Below, piece after piece: positions 8,753 through 19,289 of a DNA stretch of 64,000 bases (its first letter is position 1; every line of letters starts with the position of its first letter). The notes beneath the pieces are model-generated. The model had not been told where the DNA came from. It made no database searches and saw nothing but the letters and a program-made list of their open reading frames with translations. The translations under genes and the position numbers were made by a program. Origin of the DNA: Streptomyces sp. SID10853 (GTDB lineage Bacteria > Actinomycetota > Actinomycetes > Streptomycetales > Streptomycetaceae); contig NZ_JAAGLN010000003.1 of assembly GCF_010548145.1 (NCBI RefSeq), positions 1-64,000 on the forward strand, read 5' to 3'.

Positions 8753-8818
8753 TTGACGCGAAATCCTTGCGCGCCCTACGCTGTTCGAGATTACAGACCA
8801 CGTCCGAAATCTCGAACA
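8753..8818 (+). promoter_or_regulatory. Promoter and 11-bp inverted-repeat operator of the hydantoin island
   Basis: A sigma70-type promoter is visible: TTGACG at 8753-8758, 18 bp, then TACGCT at 8777-8782. The left arm TGTTCGAGATT (8782-8792) starts at the last base of the -10 element, covering the expected start of transcription. Its perfect partner AATCTCGAACA lies at 8808-8818 after a 15-bp spacer. A protein bound here would block initiation; in RNA the arms could also form a hairpin next to the first ribosome-binding site. No regulator gene lies in the island. Confidence 0.72.
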
Positions 8819-8826
8819 GGACTTCC

Positions 8827-9774
8827 ATGGACAACACTCGAAGCTTTCTGCGGCAGCGCGGCCTGCTGCTGTCCGACGACGTGACGTTGCCGGCGAGCGA
8901 GGTGCGCTTCCCGGACGGCGGCCAGTACCGAGTCGAGATCCCGAGCGTCGAGGGGCCTGACGTCATGGCCGCCGTCATCGAGGAGGCGCAGCGGCGCGGC
9001 GTACCGCTGCACCGGCTCTCCCAGGGCAGCGGCGGTCTGCTGACCACCCAGGGCGAACTCGCCGACTTGGCCGGCATGGGGGCAGCACACTCGGTCGAGG
9101 TCTCCCTGTTCGTACGCCCGCTGGCCGGATGGGGGATCGGGGCCGGCGCCCTCGCACCCCTGGGGACGAGCGCGGCTCAGGCGCGGGGAGCGGATCAGCT
9201 CGTACACAACCTGGAAGACCTCCGCCGTATGACCGACGCCGGTCTCAGGGGGGCTCTGATCACCGACCTCGGTGTGCTGGAGGCCGCGGCGCTGATGCGC
9301 AGCGAAGGCGAACTGCCGCCGCGCGTGCGGTTCAAGGGCAGCGTCCAGATGGGCCTGTCCAATCCGGTGTCGATCGGCATGGGCGCACGCTGTGGTCTGG
9401 ACAGCTACAACGTCCCGCCGGATCTGACCGTCGCTCATCTCGCCGAGATCCGCGCCAGGACCGACATGCCACTGGACATCTACATCGAGTCCCCGGACGA
9501 CGTCGGCGGCTTCGTGCGCTACTACGAGATAGCGGAGATCGTGCGCGTCGCGGCCCCCGTCTACCTCAAGTTCGGCGTCCGCAACGCACCCGGCCTGTAC
9601 CCCAGCGGCGCACATCTGCGGGACACCGCGGTCGCGCTCGGGCGCGAGCGGGTCAGGCGGGCGGACATCGGCCTGGAATTCCTGCGGCGTTACTACCCGG
9701 ACGCGGTCGCGTCGGCGCCGGGAGCGCCGGATCTCGGGATTCCCGAGATCAGCGAGCGGGCGGTGGTCGCGTGA
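8827..9774 (+). CDS. Conserved protein of unknown function, possible U32-peptidase-like barrel
   Basis: First gene of the hydantoin island; I cannot assign it with confidence. The 315-residue product looks soluble, with alternating strand/helix segments as in a TIM barrel (ALITDLGVLEAAALM, RVRFKGSVQMGLSNP, MPLDIYIESPDDVGGF, VYLKFGVRNAPGLYP). The strand order and the YIES/KFG elements vaguely recall U32-peptidase or sugar-aldolase-type barrels, but no catalytic motif is clear. The ATG at 8827 is chosen because the frame upstream runs through the promoter and operator; AACAGGA lies about 5 nt before it. The stop overlaps the RidA gene (GTGA), so the two are translationally coupled. Confidence 0.75.
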   Translation: MDNTRSFLRQRGLLLSDDVTLPASEVRFPDGGQYRVEIPSVEGPDVMAAVIEEAQRRGVPLHRLSQGSGGLLTTQGELADLAGMGAAHSVEVSLFVRPLAGWGIGAGALAPLGTSAAQARGADQLVHNLEDLRRMTDAGLRGALITDLGVLEAAALMRSEGELPPRVRFKGSVQMGLSNPVSIGMGARCGLDSYNVPPDLTVAHLAEIRARTDMPLDIYIESPDDVGGFVRYYEIAEIVRVAAPVYLKFGVRNAPGLYPSGAHLRDTAVALGRERVRRADIGLEFLRRYYPDAVASAPGAPDLGIPEISERAVVA

Positions 9775-10277
9775 ACCCGGCTGCACGGCTGACCCCCGAA
9801 CGACTGCTGGCCGAAGGCGAATTGATTCTGCCCGCGGCGCCGGCGCCGTCCGGCCGCTACCGCCCGGCCAGACGGACGGGCGCGTTCCTCGATATCTCCG
9901 GGCAGGTTCCGCACCGTGACGGAGTGCTGACACGGACCGGCCGGGTGGGAGAGGACATCCACACCGACGAGGCCATCGCGCTGGCGCAGCTCTCCTGTCT
10001 GAACGCACTCGCGGTAGCACGCGCCGAGAACGGCACGCTGGACGGCGTCTTTGTCCACCGCGTCCGGGTGTTCGTGGCCTGCACGCCCGACTACGACGAG
10101 CAGCATCTCGTGGCGAACGGCGCGAGCGAGTTGCTGCTGGCGGTCTTCGGCGATGCGGGTGAACACGCCCGCACCGCGATAGGTGTCTGCGCGCTGCCGC
10201 TCGGTGCTCCGGTCGAAGTCGAGATCACGCTGGCTCTCGACGAGGTGAGCGCGGCGGAAGGCGCGGCGGCTTTATGA
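9771..10277 (+). CDS. RidA/YjgF/UK114-family protein
   Basis: Predicted enamine/imine deaminase-type protein. RidA proteins hydrolyse reactive 2-aminoacrylate and related enamines released by PLP enzymes. The 168-residue sequence has the family fold: LDISGQVPHRDG (strand 2), a helix with QLSCLNALAVARAENGTLDGV, VFVACTPDY, GEHARTAIGVCALPLGAPVEVEITL. The Arg in ARTAIGVC corresponds to the substrate-carboxylate Arg of active RidAs. It starts with GTG overlapping the previous stop. With a D-serine-dehydratase-like enzyme six genes downstream, enamine hydrolysis in the same pathway is a reasonable inference. Confidence 0.88.
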   Translation: MNPAARLTPERLLAEGELILPAAPAPSGRYRPARRTGAFLDISGQVPHRDGVLTRTGRVGEDIHTDEAIALAQLSCLNALAVARAENGTLDGVFVHRVRVFVACTPDYDEQHLVANGASELLLAVFGDAGEHARTAIGVCALPLGAPVEVEITLALDEVSAAEGAAAL

Positions 10278-10379
10278 GGCGTACCGGTGCCGGAATTTCT
10301 TGCAAACCTCTGAACGCGTCGCACCACAGCCACGCCGGACCGGCTGCGCACAGCGTTGTCACACTCCTCGGAGAGCAGC

Positions 10380-11849
10380 ATGAAAACAGACCCCACGCTC
10401 TACAGCGATGACTTGGCACCTGCGACCGACCGCAAGTGGAAGACTTTCGACCTGAGTTCGATGTGGATGTCCGTCATCCACAACCTGGGCACGTACACCC
10501 TTGCGGCCGGGCTCTACGTACTCGGCCTGACACCGGTGGAGATCTTCTTCGCGTACGTCGTCGCCTTCGCCATCACGCTGGTCGCGTGCAATGCGACCGG
10601 CCTCATCGGCCAGCGGCTCGGTGTGCCCTTCCCTGTCATCGCCAGGCTGAGTTTCGGGGTGTACGGGGCCCGGATCCCGGCGATGGTCCGTGGCGTCATC
10701 GCCATATTCTGGTACGGAATCCAGACGTATCTCGCCGCGATGGCATTGATATCCGTGCTGAAGGTGATGTCTCCCGGTATCAGCGGGTGGGAGGAGCGCA
10801 CACCGTCGTTCCTCGGTCTTTCGCTCCTCGGCTGGATCTGCTTTCTCGGGGTGTGGGGGGTCCAGCTGTTCGTGGTCACCCATGGCATCGAGCGCATCCG
10901 TAAGTTCCAGAATCTCGCCGGCCCCGCGATCTGGATCGTGATGCTCGCGCTTTCGATCACGCTGCTGGTTCAGGCCGGAGGCCGGATCTCGTGGACCGGG
11001 ACGACCGTGCCCGGACAGAGCGCGGGCGCGACTGTCAAGCTGTTCATGGTGGCTGTCTTCACCATCGTGGCATCACTGTCCACCCTCATTGTGAACGTCA
11101 GCGACTTCACGCGGTTCGCAGCGGACGAACGTTCCGTGAAGCGGGGTAACTTCTGGGGGCTGCCGATCAACGGCGCCATGTTCGGCGTCGTATCGGCCAT
11201 GTGTACCGCGGGTGCGATCGCCGTGTACGGAAAGGTGTTCACCGACCCCGCCCAGCTCATAGCTCAGCAGAACAACAAGATCCTGCTCGTCGTCGGCGCC
11301 GTGCTGTTCCTCGGCGCCACCATGGGAACCAATATCTCGGCCAATGTCGTATCGGCGGCCTACGACCTGGCCAATATGTTTCCGAAACGCCTCAACTTCA
11401 CTCGTGGTGCACTGGTGGCGTCCGGTATCGCCGTCGTGGTCCTGCCGTGGAAGATGTACTCGACCCCGGCGATCATCGTGTACTCGCTCGGAGGGATAGG
11501 TGCCTTTCTGGGCCCGCTCGTCGGAATCATTCTGTGGGATTACTACCGAGTGCGGAAAGGGGCGGTGGTCGTCGACGAGCTGTATGTGAGCGACGGTTCG
11601 TCCAGGTACCACTACAGCTCCGGCTACAACTGGGTGGCGCTCACGGCCTTCGCGGGAACATCCGCGGTCACGGCAGTCATCGCTCTGGTCCCCTTCTTCG
11701 ATGCTGTCTCCGCCTATTCCTGGCCTATGGGAGTGGTGCTCGGCGCCTGTGTCTATGCGGCAGCGCTCACGCTTCTCGATCGCCGTACGGGTGTTTCGGA
11801 GGAGAGAGCAGAAGAGGTCCCGGGCGGGACGCATGCGAAAACCCTGTAG
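10380..11849 (+). CDS. NCS1-family transporter (hydantoin/allantoin/nucleobase type)
   Basis: Nucleobase:cation symporter-1 family permease, 489 residues with about 12 transmembrane segments. Family features include the N-terminal WMSVIHNLGTYTLAAGLY (substrate-site helix 1), ARLSFGVYGARIPAMVRG, WYGIQTYLAA and SDFTRFAADERS. The homologue Mhp1 carries 5-substituted hydantoins, and with hydantoinase, carbamoylase and racemase immediately downstream this is the likely substrate class. The ATG at 10380 has GGAGAG 5 nt upstream; an in-frame start at 10356 is less likely. Confidence 0.92.
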   Translation: MKTDPTLYSDDLAPATDRKWKTFDLSSMWMSVIHNLGTYTLAAGLYVLGLTPVEIFFAYVVAFAITLVACNATGLIGQRLGVPFPVIARLSFGVYGARIPAMVRGVIAIFWYGIQTYLAAMALISVLKVMSPGISGWEERTPSFLGLSLLGWICFLGVWGVQLFVVTHGIERIRKFQNLAGPAIWIVMLALSITLLVQAGGRISWTGTTVPGQSAGATVKLFMVAVFTIVASLSTLIVNVSDFTRFAADERSVKRGNFWGLPINGAMFGVVSAMCTAGAIAVYGKVFTDPAQLIAQQNNKILLVVGAVLFLGATMGTNISANVVSAAYDLANMFPKRLNFTRGALVASGIAVVVLPWKMYSTPAIIVYSLGGIGAFLGPLVGIILWDYYRVRKGAVVVDELYVSDGSSRYHYSSGYNWVALTAFAGTSAVTAVIALVPFFDAVSAYSWPMGVVLGACVYAAALTLLDRRTGVSEERAEEVPGGTHAKTL

Positions 11850-11908
11850 GTCTGTCCCTCTGTCCCTGAGATCTTCCACTGTAGTAACGGCGATTGGCAG
11901 GTAACCCC

Positions 11909-12853
11909 GTGGCGCGGAAACTGATGGTGGCGGCGGCTCAGATGGGGCCCGTCCCGCTCAGCGAGAAGAAAGAGGAAACCGTCGGCCGGCTGATCGGCAT
12001 GCTGGTCGAGGCCGCCGCACGCGGCGCCAGGCTCGTGGTCTTTCCGGAAGCCGCGCTGACTCCCTTCTTCCCGCACTGGCTGATCGATGACGAGGCCGAG
12101 CTCGACAGTTACTACGAGACAGCCATGCCGAGTCCGGTGGTCGCCCCGCTGTTCGAGATGGCACGCGAGCTGCGGGTCGGCTTCTATCTGGGGTTCGCGG
12201 AACTCACCCCGGACGGCAGGCGGTTCAACACATCGATCCTGGTTTCGGAGCAGGGCGAAATCATAGGGAAGTACCGCAAGATCCATCTGCCGGGATATGC
12301 GACCCCCCGGCCGCACGAGCCGGTCCAGAATCTGGAGAAGCGGTACTTCGAGGTGGGCGACCTGGGATTTCCCGTATGGGACGGATTCGGCGGCAGAGTC
12401 GGTATGTGTATCTGCAACGACAGGCGATGGCCGGAAACCTACCGGGTGATGGGGCTGCAAGGGGTGGAACTCGTCATGGTGGGCTACAACAGCCTGCTGA
12501 ATGTCCCCGCCATGGCGGAAGTGGATCACCTGCAGTCGTTCCACAACCATCTGTCGATGCAGTCCAACGCCTATTTCAACGGCACCTGGGTGGTGGCGTC
12601 GGCACGGGCCGGTGTGGAGGAGGGAATTCCCCAGCTCGGCCAGAGCGTCATCATCGCCCCGTCCGGTGAGATCACCGCGCAGGCGTACACGAATGGCGAC
12701 GAGGTGATCGTCGGGTCGATCGACCTGGACGCGTGCAACATATTCAAGCGCTACATGTTCAATTTCAGGCAGCACAGGCGCCCCGAGCACTACGGGCTGA
12801 TCAGCGCGCCGGTCGAGCAGTCCTGGGATTCAGGCCCTTTGCTCGGAGACTGA
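11909..12853 (+). CDS. N-carbamoyl-D-amino acid hydrolase
   Basis: Nitrilase-superfamily amidase that converts N-carbamoyl-D-amino acids to D-amino acids, ammonia and CO2. The sequence closely resembles the well-studied Agrobacterium D-carbamoylase as I recall it: FPEAALTPFFPHW with catalytic Glu47, KYRKIHLPG with Lys124, and GMCICNDRRWPE with Cys169. DEAELDSYYETAMP, NLEKRYFEVGDLGFPV and FNFRQHRRPEHYGLI are further matches. The GTG at 11909 gives 314 residues and has GGCAGG 8 nt before it; a TTG at 11894 would add five residues. Placed between an NCS1 permease and D-hydantoinase, its role in hydantoin breakdown is well supported. Confidence 0.93.
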   Translation: MARKLMVAAAQMGPVPLSEKKEETVGRLIGMLVEAAARGARLVVFPEAALTPFFPHWLIDDEAELDSYYETAMPSPVVAPLFEMARELRVGFYLGFAELTPDGRRFNTSILVSEQGEIIGKYRKIHLPGYATPRPHEPVQNLEKRYFEVGDLGFPVWDGFGGRVGMCICNDRRWPETYRVMGLQGVELVMVGYNSLLNVPAMAEVDHLQSFHNHLSMQSNAYFNGTWVVASARAGVEEGIPQLGQSVIIAPSGEITAQAYTNGDEVIVGSIDLDACNIFKRYMFNFRQHRRPEHYGLISAPVEQSWDSGPLLGD

Positions 12854-12926
12854 TCCCTCGCATCTGCACCTGCCATGACGGCAGAGAAGCACACCGCACA
12901 TGACTGGAAGCAAGTGGAGGACAACA

Positions 12927-14300
12927 ATGGGCAGCTTGTTGCTCAAGGGCGGCACGGTCTGGACGTCCGAATCCGTCGTCGAGGCCGACGTCTTCGTCGA
13001 CGGGGGAATCGTACGGGCCATCGGCAGCGGGCTCTCCCAGCAGGCCGACAGGGAGATAGACGTAGCGGGCCGGATCCTGATTCCCGGCGGTGTGGACGTA
13101 CATACACATCTGGACGCGCCGGTCGGCGGCACCACAACGGCCGACGACTTCGAAAGCGGCACGACAGCCGCCGCCTGCGGCGGAACCACCACTATTGTCG
13201 ACTTCGCGACGCAGGCGAAAGGGCAGACCCTCCAGGAGACCGTCGACACATGGCACCGTAAAGCCACCGGAAAAGCCGTTGTGGATTTCGGGTTCCACTT
13301 GTCCATCACCGATCTCTACCGGGACGCGATCGCGGATCTCGGCACTGTTGTGCGCGGTGGTATCACCAGCTTCAAGGTGTTCATGGGCTATCCGGGAACA
13401 CTCATGCTGAACGACGGTGAGATCTACCGTGTGATGCAGGCGGGTGCACGTCACGGGGCTCAGGTGTGCGTCCACGCGGAGAACGGGTTCATCATCGACC
13501 GGATGGCCGAGGACCTGATGGCACAGGGCAAGCGGGGCCCCGAGTCGCACGCCCTGTCGCGGCCTCCGTCGACCGAGGCCGAAGCGGTCAGCCGCGCGAT
13601 CCGTATCGCCCGCATGGCCGACGCACCGCTGTACTTCGTGCACCTGTCGACCGAGAGCGCGGCGCTGGCGCTCAGCGAGGCTCAGGCCACCGGGATGCCC
13701 GTGGCGGGCGAGACCTGCACCCACTACCTCACCCTGGACGAGAGCCTGTACCGCGCACCGGGCTTCGAGGGGGGCAAGGCAGTGCTCACCCCGCCGCTGC
13801 GGGGAGCCGTCGACCGGGACGCTCTCTGGCGCGGTCTGCGGACCGGGTCGCTGAGCGTGGTCAGCTCGGACCACTGCCCGTTCTGCTTCGCCCAGAAGAA
13901 GGCCGGCATCGACGACTTCAGACTGATCCCCAACGGGGGACCGGGTATTGAGCACCGTCTGCAGCTCATGTACGCGGAAGGCGTCGTCAAGAAGCGGCTG
14001 ACGCCACAGCAGTTCGTCCATCTGACGTCGACATCGCCGGCCAAGGCATTCGGTCTGTACCCGGAGAAGGGCACCATCGCTGTCGGGTCGCATGCCGACA
14101 TCACCGTGCTGGACCCGGACGGCAGCACCGGTATCTCACGGGACACACACAACATGAACGTCGACTACAGCCTGTGGGAAGGCTGGAACCTGCCCGGACG
14201 CGTCGACCGGGTGTTCCTCCGGGGCGACGAGATCGTCCGGGACGGGAAATTCCGGGGCCGCGCCGGAAGCGGACAGTACCTGAGCCGGAAGACGGTGTAG
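12927..14300 (+). CDS. D-hydantoinase / dihydropyrimidinase
   Basis: Cyclic amidase of the amidohydrolase superfamily that opens 5-substituted hydantoins or dihydropyrimidines to N-carbamoyl amino acids. All binuclear-metal ligands are visible in the 457-residue protein: His59 and His61 in VDVHTHLD, carboxylated Lys150 in TSFKVFMGYPG, His183 in VCVHAENG, His239 in YFVHLST and Asp315 in SSDHCPF. The ATG at 12927 has GTGGAGG 6-8 nt upstream. The carbamoylase before it and racemase after it (5-nt gap) point to hydantoins rather than uracil catabolism. Confidence 0.94.
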   Translation: MGSLLLKGGTVWTSESVVEADVFVDGGIVRAIGSGLSQQADREIDVAGRILIPGGVDVHTHLDAPVGGTTTADDFESGTTAAACGGTTTIVDFATQAKGQTLQETVDTWHRKATGKAVVDFGFHLSITDLYRDAIADLGTVVRGGITSFKVFMGYPGTLMLNDGEIYRVMQAGARHGAQVCVHAENGFIIDRMAEDLMAQGKRGPESHALSRPPSTEAEAVSRAIRIARMADAPLYFVHLSTESAALALSEAQATGMPVAGETCTHYLTLDESLYRAPGFEGGKAVLTPPLRGAVDRDALWRGLRTGSLSVVSSDHCPFCFAQKKAGIDDFRLIPNGGPGIEHRLQLMYAEGVVKKRLTPQQFVHLTSTSPAKAFGLYPEKGTIAVGSHADITVLDPDGSTGISRDTHNMNVDYSLWEGWNLPGRVDRVFLRGDEIVRDGKFRGRAGSGQYLSRKTV

Positions 14301-14304
14301 ACGG

Positions 14305-15048
14305 ATGAGGATTCTGGTGGTCAATCCGAACACATCACCGTCGATGAGCGCCGCCATCGCGACGGAGTGCCGGGGAGCGGCGCGTGCGTCGACAACCGTC
14401 GATGTGCTGAACCCGCGCCGTGGCCCGCGCTCGATCGAGTCCTACACCGAGGACTGCCTCGCCTCTGCCGCGACCGTCGAACTGGTCATGGAGCACCGCG
14501 ACGCGTACGACGGCTATGTCGTGGCCTGTTTCGACGACCCGGCGGTGCGTGCGCTGCGCGAGCTGGTACGGGGCCCGGTGATCGGTATCGCTGAGGCGGC
14601 GGCCCACATGGCGTCGCTGGTCGCGGCGAAGTTCTCCGTCGTCACGGTGATGCGGCGCTCCAAGCCGCGCCTGGCCGAGTCCATCGAGCGGGCGGGGCTG
14701 GCCGGCCGGTGTGGTTCCGTACGGGCGGTCGACCTGTCGGTGCTGCAGATCGAGGAGGACCTCGACGCGACGAGGGCGATCATCGCGGCGGAGGCGCGGC
14801 GGGCCATGGAGGAGGACGACGCGGAGGCCATCTGTCTGGGCTGCGCGGGGCTCGGGCCACTCGACAAGTCCCTGCAGGCGGAGCTGGGAATCCCCGTTCT
14901 TGACGGTTGCGGATGCGCGGTCAAGCTGGTCGAGGCGTGTGTCGAATACGGCATCACGACCAGCAAGTACCTGTCCTACGCGGCCCCGCCGGAGAAGGAG
15001 TACGTGGACTGGCCGGTCTTCGACACGGCCGGGGCGGGGCAGCACTGA
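14305..15048 (+). CDS. Hydantoin racemase (Asp/Glu racemase superfamily)
   Basis: Cofactor-independent racemase that interconverts D- and L-5-substituted hydantoins so that both enantiomers can reach the D-specific hydantoinase/carbamoylase pair. The start MRILVVNPNTSPSM and the two catalytic cysteines, Cys75 in VVACFDDP and Cys180 in CLGCAGLGP, are as expected for hydantoin racemases; length 247 is normal. It begins 5 nt after the hydantoinase stop. Its stop codon is the first base triplet of a 14-bp tandem repeat. Allantoin racemase is the main alternative, but no allantoinase-type ring opener is nearby. Confidence 0.92.
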   Translation: MRILVVNPNTSPSMSAAIATECRGAARASTTVDVLNPRRGPRSIESYTEDCLASAATVELVMEHRDAYDGYVVACFDDPAVRALRELVRGPVIGIAEAAAHMASLVAAKFSVVTVMRRSKPRLAESIERAGLAGRCGSVRAVDLSVLQIEEDLDATRAIIAAEARRAMEEDDAEAICLGCAGLGPLDKSLQAELGIPVLDGCGCAVKLVEACVEYGITTSKYLSYAAPPEKEYVDWPVFDTAGAGQH

Positions 15049-15176
15049 CCGGACCGCGTTGACGGGACCGCACTGACGGGGCAGCACTGACGGGGCCGGG
15101 CCCGCCGTGACCCGCTGACGCGACTTGCTGACGCGGCCCGCCGAAGTGGCCCGCCGAAGGGCCCGCCGGAGTGGCC
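15046..15176. repeat. Stop-codon-derived 14-bp tandem repeat plus 13-bp repeat
   Basis: Starting exactly at the racemase TGA, the unit TGACGGGACCGCAC recurs with 14-bp spacing at 15046, 15060, 15074 and 15088 (partial). The unit preceding the stop, GGGGCAGCAC, is also copied at 15080. After a short spacer a second set, GGCCCGCCGAAGT, is repeated about three times (about 15136-15173). The block fills the 164-nt gap before the next gene. Confidence 0.8.
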
Positions 15177-15212
15177 TGCTGGGCAATCAAGTGACCTCAG
15201 GGTCGGAACGGA

Positions 15213-16493
15213 ATGGCGATCATGCAGGAATTCGAGGCCGGCGGCATGGGCGACGACCCGTGGGCAAGGGGCCGGGACGAGGCAGGCACCCTCGACGACT
15301 GGCGGGACCGCGGGCTGAACGTGACAGCCGGGGACCTCGGCTTCCCGGCTCTCGTGCTCAAGCGCAGGGAAGTCCTGCACAACATCGCCGCCATGGCGAA
15401 GTACTGCACCGCACAGGGCGTTTCGCTGAGCCCGCACGGCAAGACATCGATGATGCCCTGGCTGTTCCGCCGCCAGCTGGAGGCTGGGGCCTGGGCGATG
15501 ACCGCGGCGACCCCGGCCCACTGCAGGACGTACCGGAGGTTCGGGATACCGCGGATACTGCTGGCCAACGTGCTCGTCGACAAGGACGCGATCGCATGGG
15601 TGGCGGCCGAACTGGACCGGGACCCGGATTTCGGATTCCTCTGCTACGCCGACAGTGTGGAAGCGGTCCACCTCATGGAGCGCGTACTCGCCGAGGTGAA
15701 GCCCCGCCGTCCGGTCGAGGTCCTGGTCGAAATCGGTTACAGAGGAGGCAGGACAGGCTGCCGGTCGCTCGACGACGCGCTGGCGGTCGGATCCGCGGTC
15801 AACGAGGCACGGTTCCTGCGTCTCACCGGAGTCTCCGGCTTCGAGGGGTTCTTGTCCGGCGACGCGTCGGTGGACGTGACCGACCAGTGCCGGAGCTATC
15901 TGGGTGAGGTGGCCGACGCCGTGCGCGCCCTGCGGGCGAAGGACTTGTTCGAGTCCGCGGAAACCATTGTCTCGGCGGGCGGCAGCGCGTATTTCGACAC
16001 CGTGGTGGAGGTGCTGGGCCCCGACCGGTTCGACTTCCCCGTGCGCACCGTGCTGCGCAGCGGATGCTATGTGGCACACGACGAGGAGATGTACGGACCG
16101 ACATCGCCGCTGGCCGGCCGGAGCGACCGGGCGCCCGAAGACCGGCTGGCCCCCGCCCTGGAGCTGTGGGCGACCGTCTGGTCACGGCCTGAACCCGGCC
16201 TCGTGATAGCCGGTTTCGGCCGGCGCGACGCACCGTACGATTTCCGGCTGCCCCAGGTGAAATCGGTCCACAGCGCGGCGGGCCCGCCCCGGGACGTCAC
16301 GGGGCGTTTCCAGGTGACCGCCCTGAACGACCAGCACGCGTACGTACGGGTTCCCGAGGACGACTCCGTAGCGGTGGGCGACCAGTTGGTGTGCGGGATC
16401 AGCCATCCGTGCGGGGCGTTCGACCGCTGGCGCTGGATCCCCCTCGTCGATGACCGTTACGACGTGCTGGAAGGGCTCGGCACGTACTTCTAG
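15213..16493 (+). CDS. D-serine dehydratase / D-threonine aldolase-like PLP enzyme
   Basis: Fold-type III PLP enzyme of the alanine-racemase-like DSD1 family, whose members dehydrate D-serine-type substrates or cleave D-3-hydroxy amino acids. The PLP lysine is in SPHGKTSMMPW (Lys77). The C-terminal GISHPCGAFDRWRW carries the His-X-Cys pair that binds the metal in yeast Dsd1p and related enzymes. Length is 426 residues. ATG 15213 is used; ATG 15222, 9 nt after GGAACGGA, may be the true start. Following a D-specific hydantoin route, it would consume the D-amino acid made upstream. Dehydratase and aldolase cannot be told apart by eye. Confidence 0.87.
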   Translation: MAIMQEFEAGGMGDDPWARGRDEAGTLDDWRDRGLNVTAGDLGFPALVLKRREVLHNIAAMAKYCTAQGVSLSPHGKTSMMPWLFRRQLEAGAWAMTAATPAHCRTYRRFGIPRILLANVLVDKDAIAWVAAELDRDPDFGFLCYADSVEAVHLMERVLAEVKPRRPVEVLVEIGYRGGRTGCRSLDDALAVGSAVNEARFLRLTGVSGFEGFLSGDASVDVTDQCRSYLGEVADAVRALRAKDLFESAETIVSAGGSAYFDTVVEVLGPDRFDFPVRTVLRSGCYVAHDEEMYGPTSPLAGRSDRAPEDRLAPALELWATVWSRPEPGLVIAGFGRRDAPYDFRLPQVKSVHSAAGPPRDVTGRFQVTALNDQHAYVRVPEDDSVAVGDQLVCGISHPCGAFDRWRWIPLVDDRYDVLEGLGTYF

Positions 16494-16533
16494 GCCCGAC
16501 AGCGGCATTGATACCTGATGACGGAGGGGAAGA

Positions 16534-18066
16534 ATGACGACCGTAGTGTCCACCGATGCGCGCACCGGCGCGGTGACCCGGCTGGAAGTGACGGAGACCG
16601 GGGTGGGCGAGGTGGCATCGCTGACCGCCGCGGCGGCCCGCGCGCTGCCCTGGCTGGCCGAGCAGGGGCGGACGGGACGAGCCGCGCTGCTCGACGCCAT
16701 CGCGGACGGGCTGGAGGCCGACGCGGAGCGGATCACTGCCGCCGCCGACCGGGAGTCCGGCCTCGGGCTGCCCCGGCTGACCGGTGAACTGGCCAGAACC
16801 GCCTACCAGTTGCGGTTCCTGGGTGACGTCGTCAGGGACGGCGGGTATCTGGATGCCGTCATCGACCGACCGGTGGCGGAGACCCCGGCCGGCCCCCGCC
16901 CCGACCTGCGCCGGATGCTTGTCCCGCTCGGCCCGGTGGCGGTCTTCGGCGCGAGCAACTTCCCGCTGGCCTTCGGGGTGGCGGGTGGCGACACCGCGTC
17001 GGCACTGGCCGTGGGAGCCCCGGTCGTGGCCAAGGCGCATCCGGCGCACCCCGAGACCTGCCGGCTGGTGGGCGCGGTGATCGCCGCGGCGGTACGCGAA
17101 CGCGGCGGCCCCGCCGGTGTGTTCAGCCTGGTGTTCGGCCGGGACGAGGGAACCGCACTGGTCACCGACCCACGTATCACCGCGGTCGGGTTCACCGGCT
17201 CACTGCGCGGTGGCCGCGCCCTGTACGACCTGGCCTGCGCGCGTGAGACACCCGTACCGTTCTACGGGGAGCTGGGCGGGGTCAATCCGCTGGTCGTCAC
17301 AGCGGCTGCGGCCGCTGAACGCGGGCCGGAAATCGGCGGCGGACTGGCCGGCAGTGTGTTGCTGGGGCAGGGCCAGTTCTGCACCAAGCCCGGGCTGATC
17401 CTGTTGCCTGCGGGCGCGGACGGCACGGAGGCCGTCACGGCGCTCGCGGCGGCGGTACGGGCGGCGCGCCCCGGCCACCTGCTCACCGCGTCGATCGCGG
17501 CCGCCTTCGCCCGTGAGACGAAGGGCATCGGTGAACTGCCCGGGGTGACCGTACTGGCGGCGACCGAAGGCGCGGACGGCACGACGGGCGCGCTGGTGGT
17601 GGAGGCGGATCCGGAAGCGCTGCTGTCCGGTGGGTCCGAAGCCCTGCTCGCGGAGCACTTCGGGCCGTTTGCCGTGGTCGTCCGGTACGCCGACCAGGCG
17701 CAGCTGGCCGCCGTGCTGGCCGCTGTCCCGGCCGCGCTGACCGGGACGGTGCACGGCGCCACCGAGGCCACCGACCCGGACTTCGCGGCGGCATTCCGGA
17801 TGCTGGCGGCGCGGTCGGGCCGGGTCGTGGTGAACGGCTACCCCACCGGCGTCGCGGTGAGCTGGGCGATGCACCACGGAGGCGGCTACCCGGCGACCAC
17901 GGCTCCGGGCGAGACCTCGGTCGGCGCGGCGTCGGTACGCCGCTGGCTGCGGCCGGTGACCTTTCAGGACGCGCCACAGGCCCTGCTGCCTGCCGAACTC
18001 GCGGACGGGCCGGTGCCGGGGCTGCCCCGCCGCATCGACGGGGTGCTCACCATCGACGGGTGCTGA
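16534..18066 (+). CDS. NAD(P)-dependent aldehyde dehydrogenase, ketoglutarate-semialdehyde-dehydrogenase-like
   Basis: Aldehyde dehydrogenase superfamily, 510 residues. Seen are the N-terminal GPVAVFGASNFPLAFG cofactor segment, GFTGSLRGGRALYDLA, the catalytic Glu region GELGGVNPLVV and the catalytic Cys in GQGQFCTKPGL. The SLRGG/GQFCTKPG pattern resembles alpha-ketoglutaric semialdehyde dehydrogenases. As last gene of the hydantoin island it could oxidise an aldehyde released by a D-threonine-aldolase-type reaction, or handle a side-chain aldehyde. The start follows GGAGGGGAAG. The last codons and stop form part of a 17-bp tandem repeat. Confidence 0.9.
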   Translation: MTTVVSTDARTGAVTRLEVTETGVGEVASLTAAAARALPWLAEQGRTGRAALLDAIADGLEADAERITAAADRESGLGLPRLTGELARTAYQLRFLGDVVRDGGYLDAVIDRPVAETPAGPRPDLRRMLVPLGPVAVFGASNFPLAFGVAGGDTASALAVGAPVVAKAHPAHPETCRLVGAVIAAAVRERGGPAGVFSLVFGRDEGTALVTDPRITAVGFTGSLRGGRALYDLACARETPVPFYGELGGVNPLVVTAAAAAERGPEIGGGLAGSVLLGQGQFCTKPGLILLPAGADGTEAVTALAAAVRAARPGHLLTASIAAAFARETKGIGELPGVTVLAATEGADGTTGALVVEADPEALLSGGSEALLAEHFGPFAVVVRYADQAQLAAVLAAVPAALTGTVHGATEATDPDFAAAFRMLAARSGRVVVNGYPTGVAVSWAMHHGGGYPATTAPGETSVGAASVRRWLRPVTFQDAPQALLPAELADGPVPGLPRRIDGVLTIDGC

Positions 18067-18167: not shown

Positions 18168-19289
18168 TCAGAACGCCAGCCGGCTCCGTACGGTGGCTGC
18201 CAGCTCCCTGTCGGGCGGCAGGGGATGGTCCCGCAGCCCGGATTCAGCGACCTGGTCCAGGAGTCTGTCGAAGCCGAACAGGAACGACCTGTTTCCCAGG
18301 ACCCGGTCGAACTTCTCCGCATTGGCGATGGACGCGTCGAACAAATCCCCCGATGCGAGGTCGATCCGGGGGAACTCCGGATTGGCCTGGTCCTGCGAGA
18401 GCCATTCGATGTGGGTGTGCAGATGGCCCTGCCTGACGAATGACTCCATATAGGAATCGGACACATTCACTTCGGACTGTGTCGTATGTACGCGCACCCG
18501 CTCGTCCAACAGCTGGAGTACGTGGAGGTTCTTCAGAGCGAGGTGCGCGGAGTCCATCACCGGCCACGGCAGCCCCGAGTTCTTGATGAACGGCACCATG
18601 GAGAGGAACGCGATGTGATCGCACACGCACTCCTCGATGAGCGGGCTGGACGGTGTCAGCCCGTCCACGAATCCGCTCAGGTCGAAGAAGGAGGGGGTGT
18701 CGGCGGATCCCGCGGAGAACCTTCCTGCCCATTCCCGTACGACGTCGAGCGAGTCCTTGCTGCTCCAGCCCGGCCCGGCCTTTTCCCTCTCGTTGCGCAG
18801 CAGGATATGGCACACCTCGTGCGCGATGGTGAACAGCTCCTGCGCGAGCGCAAGGGTCCAGGTGGCCTTCGACGGCGCGGGGACGGGAGCGCAGCGGTCG
18901 CGCAGGATGTTCTGGGCGATGGAGATGTAGTACGCCGAGTCGAGATGGCCGGTGAGGTAGAGCCGGTGGCCCGTCAGCCGGTACAGACAGGCCAGGACCT
19001 GGTCGGGCTCCGCCTCGTTGAGCGCCAGGTTGGTCAGGGCGCTGAAGATCCGGCCGAGTTGCTGGTCGTAGACCACGTACTCCCCGGACGGGCTCACGAA
19101 GTGGGACGGCCGGGCGTGAAAGGAATCGACGACCACGAAGGGAGGCGCAGTGCTGTCCACCTGCAGCAGGTTTGCTTCTTCCTCCCAGAACAGATGGAAG
19201 TAGTTCTCGTAATTCTCCGACCAGGCGGGCAGCACCCTGTCGAAGCAGTCCGCCCCGTACAGGGTCTTCAGATAGGCGCTATCCATCAT
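18168..19289 (-). CDS. Putative zinc metallopeptidase-like protein of unknown role
   Basis: A 373-residue protein with a zincin-type motif: TIAHEVCHILL contains His157-Glu158-x-x-His161, and EECVCDHIAF (Glu220/Asp224) about 60 residues later could supply the third metal ligand. No signal peptide or membrane helix is evident, so it is probably cytosolic. Other recognisable domains are lacking. The ATG at 19289 lies inside the 3' end of the preceding small gene (11-nt overlap), so the two are surely co-translated. Seven residues before HEVCH are hydrophobic/helical as in minimal zincins. Function is unknown; a conflict or stress-response protease is one possibility. Confidence 0.8.
   Translation of the reverse strand: MMDSAYLKTLYGADCFDRVLPAWSENYENYFHLFWEEEANLLQVDSTAPPFVVVDSFHARPSHFVSPSGEYVVYDQQLGRIFSALTNLALNEAEPDQVLACLYRLTGHRLYLTGHLDSAYYISIAQNILRDRCAPVPAPSKATWTLALAQELFTIAHEVCHILLRNEREKAGPGWSSKDSLDVVREWAGRFSAGSADTPSFFDLSGFVDGLTPSSPLIEECVCDHIAFLSMVPFIKNSGLPWPVMDSAHLALKNLHVLQLLDERVRVHTTQSEVNVSDSYMESFVRQGHLHTHIEWLSQDQANPEFPRIDLASGDLFDASIANAEKFDRVLGNRSFLFGFDRLLDQVAESGLRDHPLPPDRELAATVRSRLAF

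Follow-up and report, generated by a model that had tools for sequence, protein, structure and literature searches.

A D-hydantoinase operon of Streptomyces sp. SID10853 with a possible link to non-phosphorylative sugar-acid oxidation

What natural compound is a bacterium equipped to degrade when its D-hydantoin genes are joined in one operon by a pyridoxal phosphate (PLP)-dependent D-amino-acid deaminase, a RidA protein, an aldehyde dehydrogenase (ALDH) and a protein distantly resembling peptidase family U32? The question is raised by positions 8827-18066 (+ strand) of the stretch of DNA analysed here (hereafter the window), the first 64,000 nucleotides of contig NZ_JAAGLN010000003.1 of Streptomyces sp. 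SID10853 (assembly GCF_010548145.1). The initial annotation had described a nine-gene island leading from racemic hydantoins to free D-amino acids, with a permease for uptake and with a PLP enzyme, an ALDH and RidA at its downstream end. This description is partly confirmed and holds in substance: all seven functions named lie within the interval, in frame and on the + strand, and the gene content supports both the route and its permease. The island has eight genes rather than nine, RidA is encoded by the second gene and not at the downstream end, and the inventory lacked the first gene, which encodes the U32-like protein. The interpretation given at that time is likewise partly supported. In our view there is about an even chance that the operon serves the catabolism of a hydantoin with a polyhydroxylated side chain, in other words of a sugar-derived D-amino acid (a 2-amino-2-deoxyaldonate) in its hydantoin or N-carbamoyl form.

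The eight genes are co-directional, and the gaps between consecutive genes are, in order, -4, 102, 59, 73, 4, 164 and 40 bp. Families were assigned from Pfam, NCBIfam and the sequences of solved structures. First comes the 315-aa U32-like protein (8827-9774), whose stop codon is overlapped by the GTG start of the gene for a 168-aa RidA/YjgF-family protein (9771-10277), followed by the hydantoin module. The 489-aa NCS1-family permease (10380-11849) scores 306.7 bits against PF02133 (cut-off 23.5) and 305.1 bits against the curated ncs1 model TIGR00800, under its cut-off of 353.1; both solved sequences that it matches are the Mhp1 hydantoin permease (92.5 bits). The N-carbamoyl-D-amino acid hydrolase (nitrilase family, 314 aa, GTG start; 11909-12853) aligns with a solved D-carbamoylase at 382.5 bits over residues 1-300 and carries FPEA, KYRKIH and CICND at residues 45, 121 and 167, which we take to be the Glu-Lys-Cys motifs. 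The 457-aa D-hydantoinase/dihydropyrimidinase (12927-14300), two activities covered by one common model, reaches 588.1 bits against TIGR02033 (cut-off 393.25) and 458 bits against a solved D-hydantoinase, and has HTHLD, FKVFM, VHAENG, FVHLS and SSDHCP, presumably its metal-ligand motifs. The 247-aa protein of the Asp/Glu/hydantoin racemase family (14305-15048; PF01177, 176.6 bits) possesses two Cys motifs, and its nearest relatives are hydantoin and allantoin racemases (171.5 bits to 3qvj, a "putative hydantoin racemase", and 169.7 to the allantoin racemase 5lfd). The operon ends with a 426-aa fold-III PLP D-amino-acid deaminase (D-serine dehydratase-like, DSD; 15213-16493) and a 510-aa ALDH (16534-18066). 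Six proteins were examined for catalytic-site motifs (carbamoylase, hydantoinase, racemase, DSD, ALDH and RidA); each has the motifs expected of it, and we assume that these have their usual catalytic roles here. The G+C contents of the permease, carbamoylase and hydantoinase genes are 0.62, 0.63 and 0.66; genes elsewhere in the window, as called by a simple gene caller that also accepts spurious frames, have a median of 0.71.

The initial annotation had suggested looking for the same gene order in other genomes, and one further case was found. Homoserinimonas sp. OAct 916 (locus L083) has all eight genes, arranged and oriented alike, with identities, in gene order, of 62, 48, 55, 73, 70, 71, 54 and 46%; because the order is identical, the arrangement is not a matter of chance. 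Within L083:1817-6235, two transposase-like genes (recognised by eye) flank an IclR gene, one of them between the IclR gene and the operon, a possible trace of movement. The scan of genome contigs for carbamoylases used short exact peptides and therefore reached only close relatives; of the 115 that were confirmed, 80 were kept, many on short loci. Within the DNA of each locus, homologues of the U32-like protein, the NCS1 permease and the ALDH occur in none of the 79 other carbamoylase loci, a hydantoinase homologue occurs in 13 and a DSD homologue in three, one of them at 28% identity (E up to 1e-6 throughout). The best carbamoylase match among 248 other genomes of the family of the window organism shares 38% identity (109 bits, where the protein itself scores 722), and across 394 genomes of the class, its own included, the only other carbamoylase at E up to 1e-50 is in genome G297 (66%), at a contig end; the preceding 4 kb contain no further gene of the island. 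In family f36, to which Homoserinimonas belongs, three of 115 genomes have the carbamoylase: G921, whose locus (L241) is the Homoserinimonas operon again, with DNA lying within L083, and is counted once, and G955 and G908, which show ordinary hydantoin layouts; none of the 296 genomes of family f25 has it. The rare occurrence suggests lateral transfer. The family f36 loci L242 (hydantoinase, an FAD-dependent oxidoreductase recognised by eye, racemase, carbamoylase) and L243 (carbamoylase, hydantoinase, NCS1 permease) are of the ordinary kind, so the unusual part of the operon is not general to D-hydantoin operons.

The first clue to the substrate is the PLP enzyme. That the route yields a beta-hydroxy D-amino acid, as first proposed, is supported because this enzyme belongs to the D-amino-acid deaminase/dehydratase family: it scores 60.3 bits against PF14031 (cut-off 22), its best solved relative is 3gwq, annotated "D-serine deaminase" (252 bits), and it carries HGKTS at residue 75 and ISHPC at residue 396, which we take to be the PLP lysine and the HxC zinc motif, respectively. 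Of the earlier label "D-serine-dehydratase/D-threonine-aldolase-like", the dehydratase side is the better supported, solved D-threonine aldolases giving 64 and 34 bits. A retro-aldol reaction to glycine and an aldehyde, in the manner of D-threonine aldolase, was rejected given this weaker match, a score of 55.7 bits against the 690 required by the curated BhcC (3-hydroxy-D-aspartate aldolase) model, and a U32-like protein that it would leave without explanation. The RidA-family protein, a proposed enamine/imine deaminase with the motif ARTAIG at residue 133, exceeds the cut-offs of PF14588 (53.5 bits) and PF01042 (44.1 bits) and falls under that of RidA proper (TIGR00004, 25.9 against 106.25 bits).

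Relatives of the DSD are frequently clustered with N-deblocking amidases and RidA. In one such case, the ong cluster for oxidised chitin (PMC9537276), OngC converts D-glucosaminate to 2-keto-3-deoxygluconate (KDG) and also deaminates D-serine and D-threonine, and the RidA protein OngD is required for growth. The annotation of a Pseudoalteromonas megaplasmid locus (L245) shows this ong layout. We examined 20 DSD loci, mostly from the top of a list of 142 genomes with a DSD match, and found RidA homologues in 10, D-aminoacylase-like amidohydrolases in nine and PfkB kinases in six (one a weak 23% match, 4.7 kb away); some of the query proteins for these counts were drawn from the same loci. The window genome itself has a second DSD, 44% identical, which is grouped with a D-aminoacylase-like amidohydrolase, a PfkB kinase, an IclR gene (by eye) and a GntP permease; the best NCBIfam model for that kinase is the KDG/2-keto-3-deoxygalactonate (KDGal) kinase, at 165 bits under a cut-off of 400. 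A tree of 27 DSD sequences pairs the window enzyme with that of L083 (100/100) and, across a fork of 89/92, the Shinella (L143) enzyme with that of Aureimonas (L134) (100/100). Because these fall in two groups, a DSD seems to have been joined to a D-carbamoylase more than once. The Shinella order, read partly by eye, is IclR, carbamoylase, ABC transporter, hydantoinase, racemase, DSD and a second carbamoylase cut at the locus end. The length of the side chain is not deducible from the DSD alone.

Three other DSD loci deserve mention. On an Agrobacterium larrymoorei plasmid (L246, 4101-9221), a DSD, a RidA, an HpaI-type aldolase, which falls under the cut-offs of the curated aldolase models, and a semialdehyde dehydrogenase are encoded in some 5 kb; this looks like another route for a beta-hydroxy or sugar amino acid, parallel in logic. 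In L193 and L195 RidA adjoins the DSD, and L193 has TRAP transporter genes and an M20-type peptidase gene nearby (by eye), the latter perhaps another kind of N-deblocking partner of the DSD.

The second clue is the company kept by relatives of the U32-like protein. Homologues are present in 40 of 150 genomes of the family (E up to 0.001) and in 69 of 394 genomes of the class (E up to 1e-20), counting the window genome, whose single copy is the operon's own. Forty U32 loci from 38 genomes, mainly high-scoring ones together with four distant ones, were examined on stretches of 13.5-20 kb. A sugar-acid dehydratase gene (enolase-superfamily/MR- or IlvD-type) is present in 30 of them, one cut at the edge, and an ALDH resembling that of the window in 14 (E up to 1e-10). 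The nearest relatives, in L216-L221 (62-68% identity), occur together with an enolase-type dehydratase, a Zn-dehydrogenase, an ALDH and an SMP-30 lactonase; L220 adds a xylose isomerase gene and a xylulokinase-like one, and L216 GalK/GalT-like ones (by eye). Outside the class, Thermomicrobium roseum (L244) combines a U32 homologue (60%) with a dehydratase of the same kind (67%) and an IclR (57%). In the U32 tree, the window and L083 proteins (93/88) join those of L216-L221 in a set of eight (100/99). In non-phosphorylative pathways, as set out in PMC6336799, a sugar is oxidised, the lactone is opened and the acid is dehydrated to a 2-keto-3-deoxy acid, whose fates are cleavage, dehydration or dehydrogenation. 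Because so many U32 loci hold a sugar-acid dehydratase gene, the U32-like protein may act at the step after the 2-keto-3-deoxy sugar acid, and guilt by association singles it out as the candidate lyase.

The likeness of the protein to peptidase family U32 consists of a weak match of residues 132-220 to PF01136 (19.7 bits, under the cut-off of 22.4) and a barrel-like model. A single-sequence search gave no solved relative at E up to 0.1, and a profile search against solved structures gave matches only at E 0.1 and worse, the best being a tagatose-bisphosphate aldolase. Peptidase family U32 includes TrhP, RlhA and UbiU/V, and UbiU/V carry a four-cysteine iron-sulphur (4Fe-4S) site; such a site is impossible in the window protein, which has one cysteine (residue 189). 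The structure model, predicted from two sequences, is of low confidence (predicted local distance difference test, pLDDT, 59), and its 516 Foldseek matches at E up to 0.001 cover many kinds of barrel enzyme, with a query template modelling (TM) score of 0.37-0.49 among the 50 matches listed, so that no function was drawn from them. Lys170, Lys248, Glu37, Arg63, Asp147, Asp199, Asp217 and Arg231 are invariant in 31 aligned homologues. A more distant homologue (28%) on an Enterobacter plasmid (L249:5980-12909) lies with an aminotransferase, an iron-containing redox enzyme, an M14 peptidase and an MFS transporter, a cluster for which small-molecule biosynthesis is possible.

The third clue is regulatory. 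An operator-like inverted repeat, CTGTTCGAGATT-N15-AATCTCGAACAG, lies at 8781-8819, 7 bases before the U32 ATG. The repeat is perfect with 12-bp arms, and when the 278 upstream bases were shuffled 300 times (mononucleotide shuffles), the arms reached at most 11. Its start is overlapped by a possible promoter (TTGACG, 18-bp spacer, TACGCT; 8753-8782, + strand), recognised by sequence resemblance. With zero mismatches, the pattern TGTTCGNGAT-N16-AATCTCGAAC occurs at only two places in the 7.77-Mb draft genome, namely at the operon promoter and on contig C110, 27 bases upstream of the ATG that starts an IclR gene (L255:9785-10588), and the two sites agree at 28 of 37 bases. The C110 IclR is 50% identical to the IclR encoded upstream of the L083 operon, the next best protein of the window genome reaching 33%. 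Orthologues of it (79-80%) lie 2.7-22.9 kb from a U32 sugar gene, on the same contig, in all four genomes of the genus that were tested, and IclRs 52-83% identical to it are encoded in 11 of the 40 U32 loci. Operator-like sites (at most 4 mismatches) precede the IclR gene in three of eight loci of the family (L038, L041 and L042) and the dehydratase gene in four of 13 (L038, L040, L041 and L048), against a random background of two in 400 stretches of 200 bp from the same loci; in L038 the divergent genes have one site in common. L216-L219 have instead a LacI-type palindrome, AATGTTAGCGCTAACATT, before the U32 sugar operon, and L216 has a divergent LacI-type gene (by eye). No sugar dehydratase was found in 19.9 kb of contig C110, the one part of the window genome tested. 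Judged from these sequences, the operon is probably switched by the IclR of an oxidative-sugar regulon encoded elsewhere, on contig C110.

The ALDH points in the same direction. It scores 127.2 bits against PF00171 and 356 bits to 3v4c, is of a kind seen in U32 sugar clusters, and scores under the cut-offs of curated alpha-ketoglutaric semialdehyde dehydrogenase models (GucD, 70.8 against 770 bits; 2,5-dioxovalerate, 69.9 against 750 bits). In the tree it groups with the enzymes of sugar clusters of its own family (L036, L039 and L042) and of L230 (99/99), and the L083 enzyme, on a long branch, groups with those of L216-L221 (98/96). ALDHs from two sugar-cluster sources thus seem to have entered, or been substituted into, this one position of the operon.

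From the gene content, the conserved order, the genome contexts, the tree positions and the shared operator sequence, all observed, we infer the substrate, each reaction and the regulation. The NCS1 permease would import the hydantoin and the racemase would equilibrate its C5. Ring opening by the D-hydantoinase would give an N-carbamoyl D-amino acid, from which the D-carbamoylase would release the 2-amino-2-deoxyaldonate, NH3 and CO2. The DSD would then remove the beta-hydroxyl as water, and RidA may aid hydrolysis of the enamine/imine to a 2-keto-3-deoxyaldonate and NH3. Two options present themselves for the U32-like protein: as a dehydratase it would dehydrate the 2-keto-3-deoxy acid, giving alpha-ketoglutaric semialdehyde from a pentonate, and as an aldolase it would cleave it to pyruvate and glycolaldehyde or glyceraldehyde. 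The ALDH would oxidise the resulting aldehyde to 2-oxoglutarate, glycolate or glycerate. More tentatively, and with somewhat less than an even chance of being right, we propose that this cysteine-poor U32-like barrel with invariant lysines is a new kind of 2-keto-3-deoxyaldonate dehydratase or aldolase, also used in actinobacterial sugar clusters, and here part of a dedicated polyhydroxyalkyl-hydantoin pathway under a sugar-regulon IclR that would join D-hydantoinase chemistry to non-phosphorylative sugar-acid oxidation.

Several observations weigh against this proposal. The eight-gene operon is known from two genomes only. The 40 U32 loci come from 38 genomes with many close kin among them, and 10, including all four distant ones (L049-L052), are without either dehydratase type. 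The chemistry assigned to the U32-like protein is drawn from context, as the Pfam score is below the cut-off and the fold model is poor. The operator was not found in many of the sugar clusters tested, and the match at the L083 U32 promoter is weaker, with four of 19 fixed positions different and 25 of 37 bases in agreement; it is the best match of its locus, the runner-up place having 23. The window DSD is not in a clade with the Pseudoalteromonas OngC of L245 (33% identity, L245 on a long branch). A natural polyhydroxyalkyl hydantoin was not found in the open-access literature searched; chemically possible sources are carbamoylated amino-sugar acids or urea-dicarbonyl condensation. In vitro, according to PMC9537276, OngC yields KDG and ammonia without a RidA protein, and its authors call the role of RidA unknown.

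Finally, the carbamoylase-DSD clusters of Shinella and Aureimonas contain neither a U32 homologue nor such an ALDH in the locus DNA examined, so a DSD with a carbamoylase can serve simpler substrates. This bears on the explanation closest to the one first offered, in which D-serine, D-threonine or another beta-hydroxy D-amino acid of this sort arises from a simple 5-(1-hydroxyalkyl)hydantoin, is then cleaved or dehydrated by the PLP enzyme, and leaves an aldehyde for the ALDH to remove. The two clusters would suit such substrates, D-threonine aldolases and 3-hydroxyaspartate enzymes are relatives of the DSD, and OngC accepts D-serine and D-threonine (PMC9537276). We nevertheless consider this explanation unlikely. 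Dehydration of D-serine or D-threonine yields no aldehyde and the ALDH would therefore be idle, while cleavage would call on an aldolase likeness far weaker than the deaminase match. The examples given in the initial annotation, 5-(hydroxymethyl)- and 5-(1-hydroxyethyl)hydantoin, also leave the U32-like protein, the sugar-cluster ALDH and the sugar-cluster IclR operator unexplained.

A composite operon, in which a broad nitrogen-scavenging hydantoin module (including the DSD and RidA) came to be co-transcribed from one promoter with an unrelated sugar module (the U32-like protein and the ALDH), would fit the existence of hydantoin modules without sugar genes (L242 and L243) and the different sugar-cluster affinities of the two ALDHs. 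It too strikes us as improbable: in both families the U32 gene opens the operon and the ALDH gene closes it, with the hydantoin genes enclosed in an identical order; that ALDHs of two origins occupy one position suggests selection; and the operon has none of the genes (sugar dehydrogenase, lactonase, dehydratase) needed to supply such a module. Salvage of allantoin or dihydropyrimidines mistaken for a D-hydantoin route, to which the equal closeness of the racemase to 5lfd and 3qvj, the sub-cut-off matches of the permease to allantoin-permease models and the common hydantoinase/dihydropyrimidinase model might point, is very improbable and was rejected on curated cut-offs, as the hydantoinase falls short of the NCBIfam allantoinase models (270.9 against 357.85 and 275.5 against 631 bits) and the permease of the allantoin permease model (278.4 against 620 bits), the amidase that matches a D-carbamoylase so well gives at most 76.5 bits with any solved entry named beta-ureidopropionase, and no gene of the operon is known for ureidoglycine or a beta-amino acid.

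Convergent with the operon, at 18168-19289 on the - strand, lies a gene for a 373-aa protein with an HEVCH (HExxH) motif, zinc-peptidase-like by eye.

If the polyhydroxyalkyl-hydantoin pathway is real, hydantoin-degrading enzymes would gain a natural and testable role, with a concrete class of natural substrate and each step predicted, and the predicted function would extend to the U32-like family across the class. In the open-access literature searched, we found no description of a hydantoinase with a deaminase, RidA or ALDH, and none, among the matches listed, of U32 proteins in sugar-acid pathways. The front half belongs to a known type of operon; the sugar-acid link and the U32 prediction did not come up among the papers listed. 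Compared with D-hydantoin (hyu) operons, the front half has the same hydantoinase, D-carbamoylase, racemase and permease functions. A carbamoylase gene upstream of the hydantoinase gene is called unusual in PMC3546935, which gives Aminobacter and Arthrobacter crystallopoietes as cases. The operon differs from hyu operons in adding the DSD, RidA, the U32-like protein and the ALDH, where the ordinary L242 has its FAD-dependent oxidoreductase. With the ong cluster, composed of the deacetylase OngB, the deaminase OngC, the RidA protein OngD and KdgK (PMC9537276), it shares the clustering of an N-deblocking amidase, a fold-III PLP D-amino-acid deaminase and RidA; here, however, the amidase pair is a hydantoinase and a carbamoylase, and there is no KDG kinase, the U32-like protein and the ALDH replacing kinase and aldolase. 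With non-phosphorylative sugar oxidation (the Weimberg and Dahms pathways; Routes I and II of PMC6336799), the operon has in common the kinds of U32 protein and ALDH, and in part the operator, that belong to actinobacterial sugar clusters. Those clusters hold dehydrogenase, lactonase and sugar-acid dehydratase genes, whereas the operon is without these three, and the 2-keto-3-deoxy acid would here be formed by the DSD from an amino acid.

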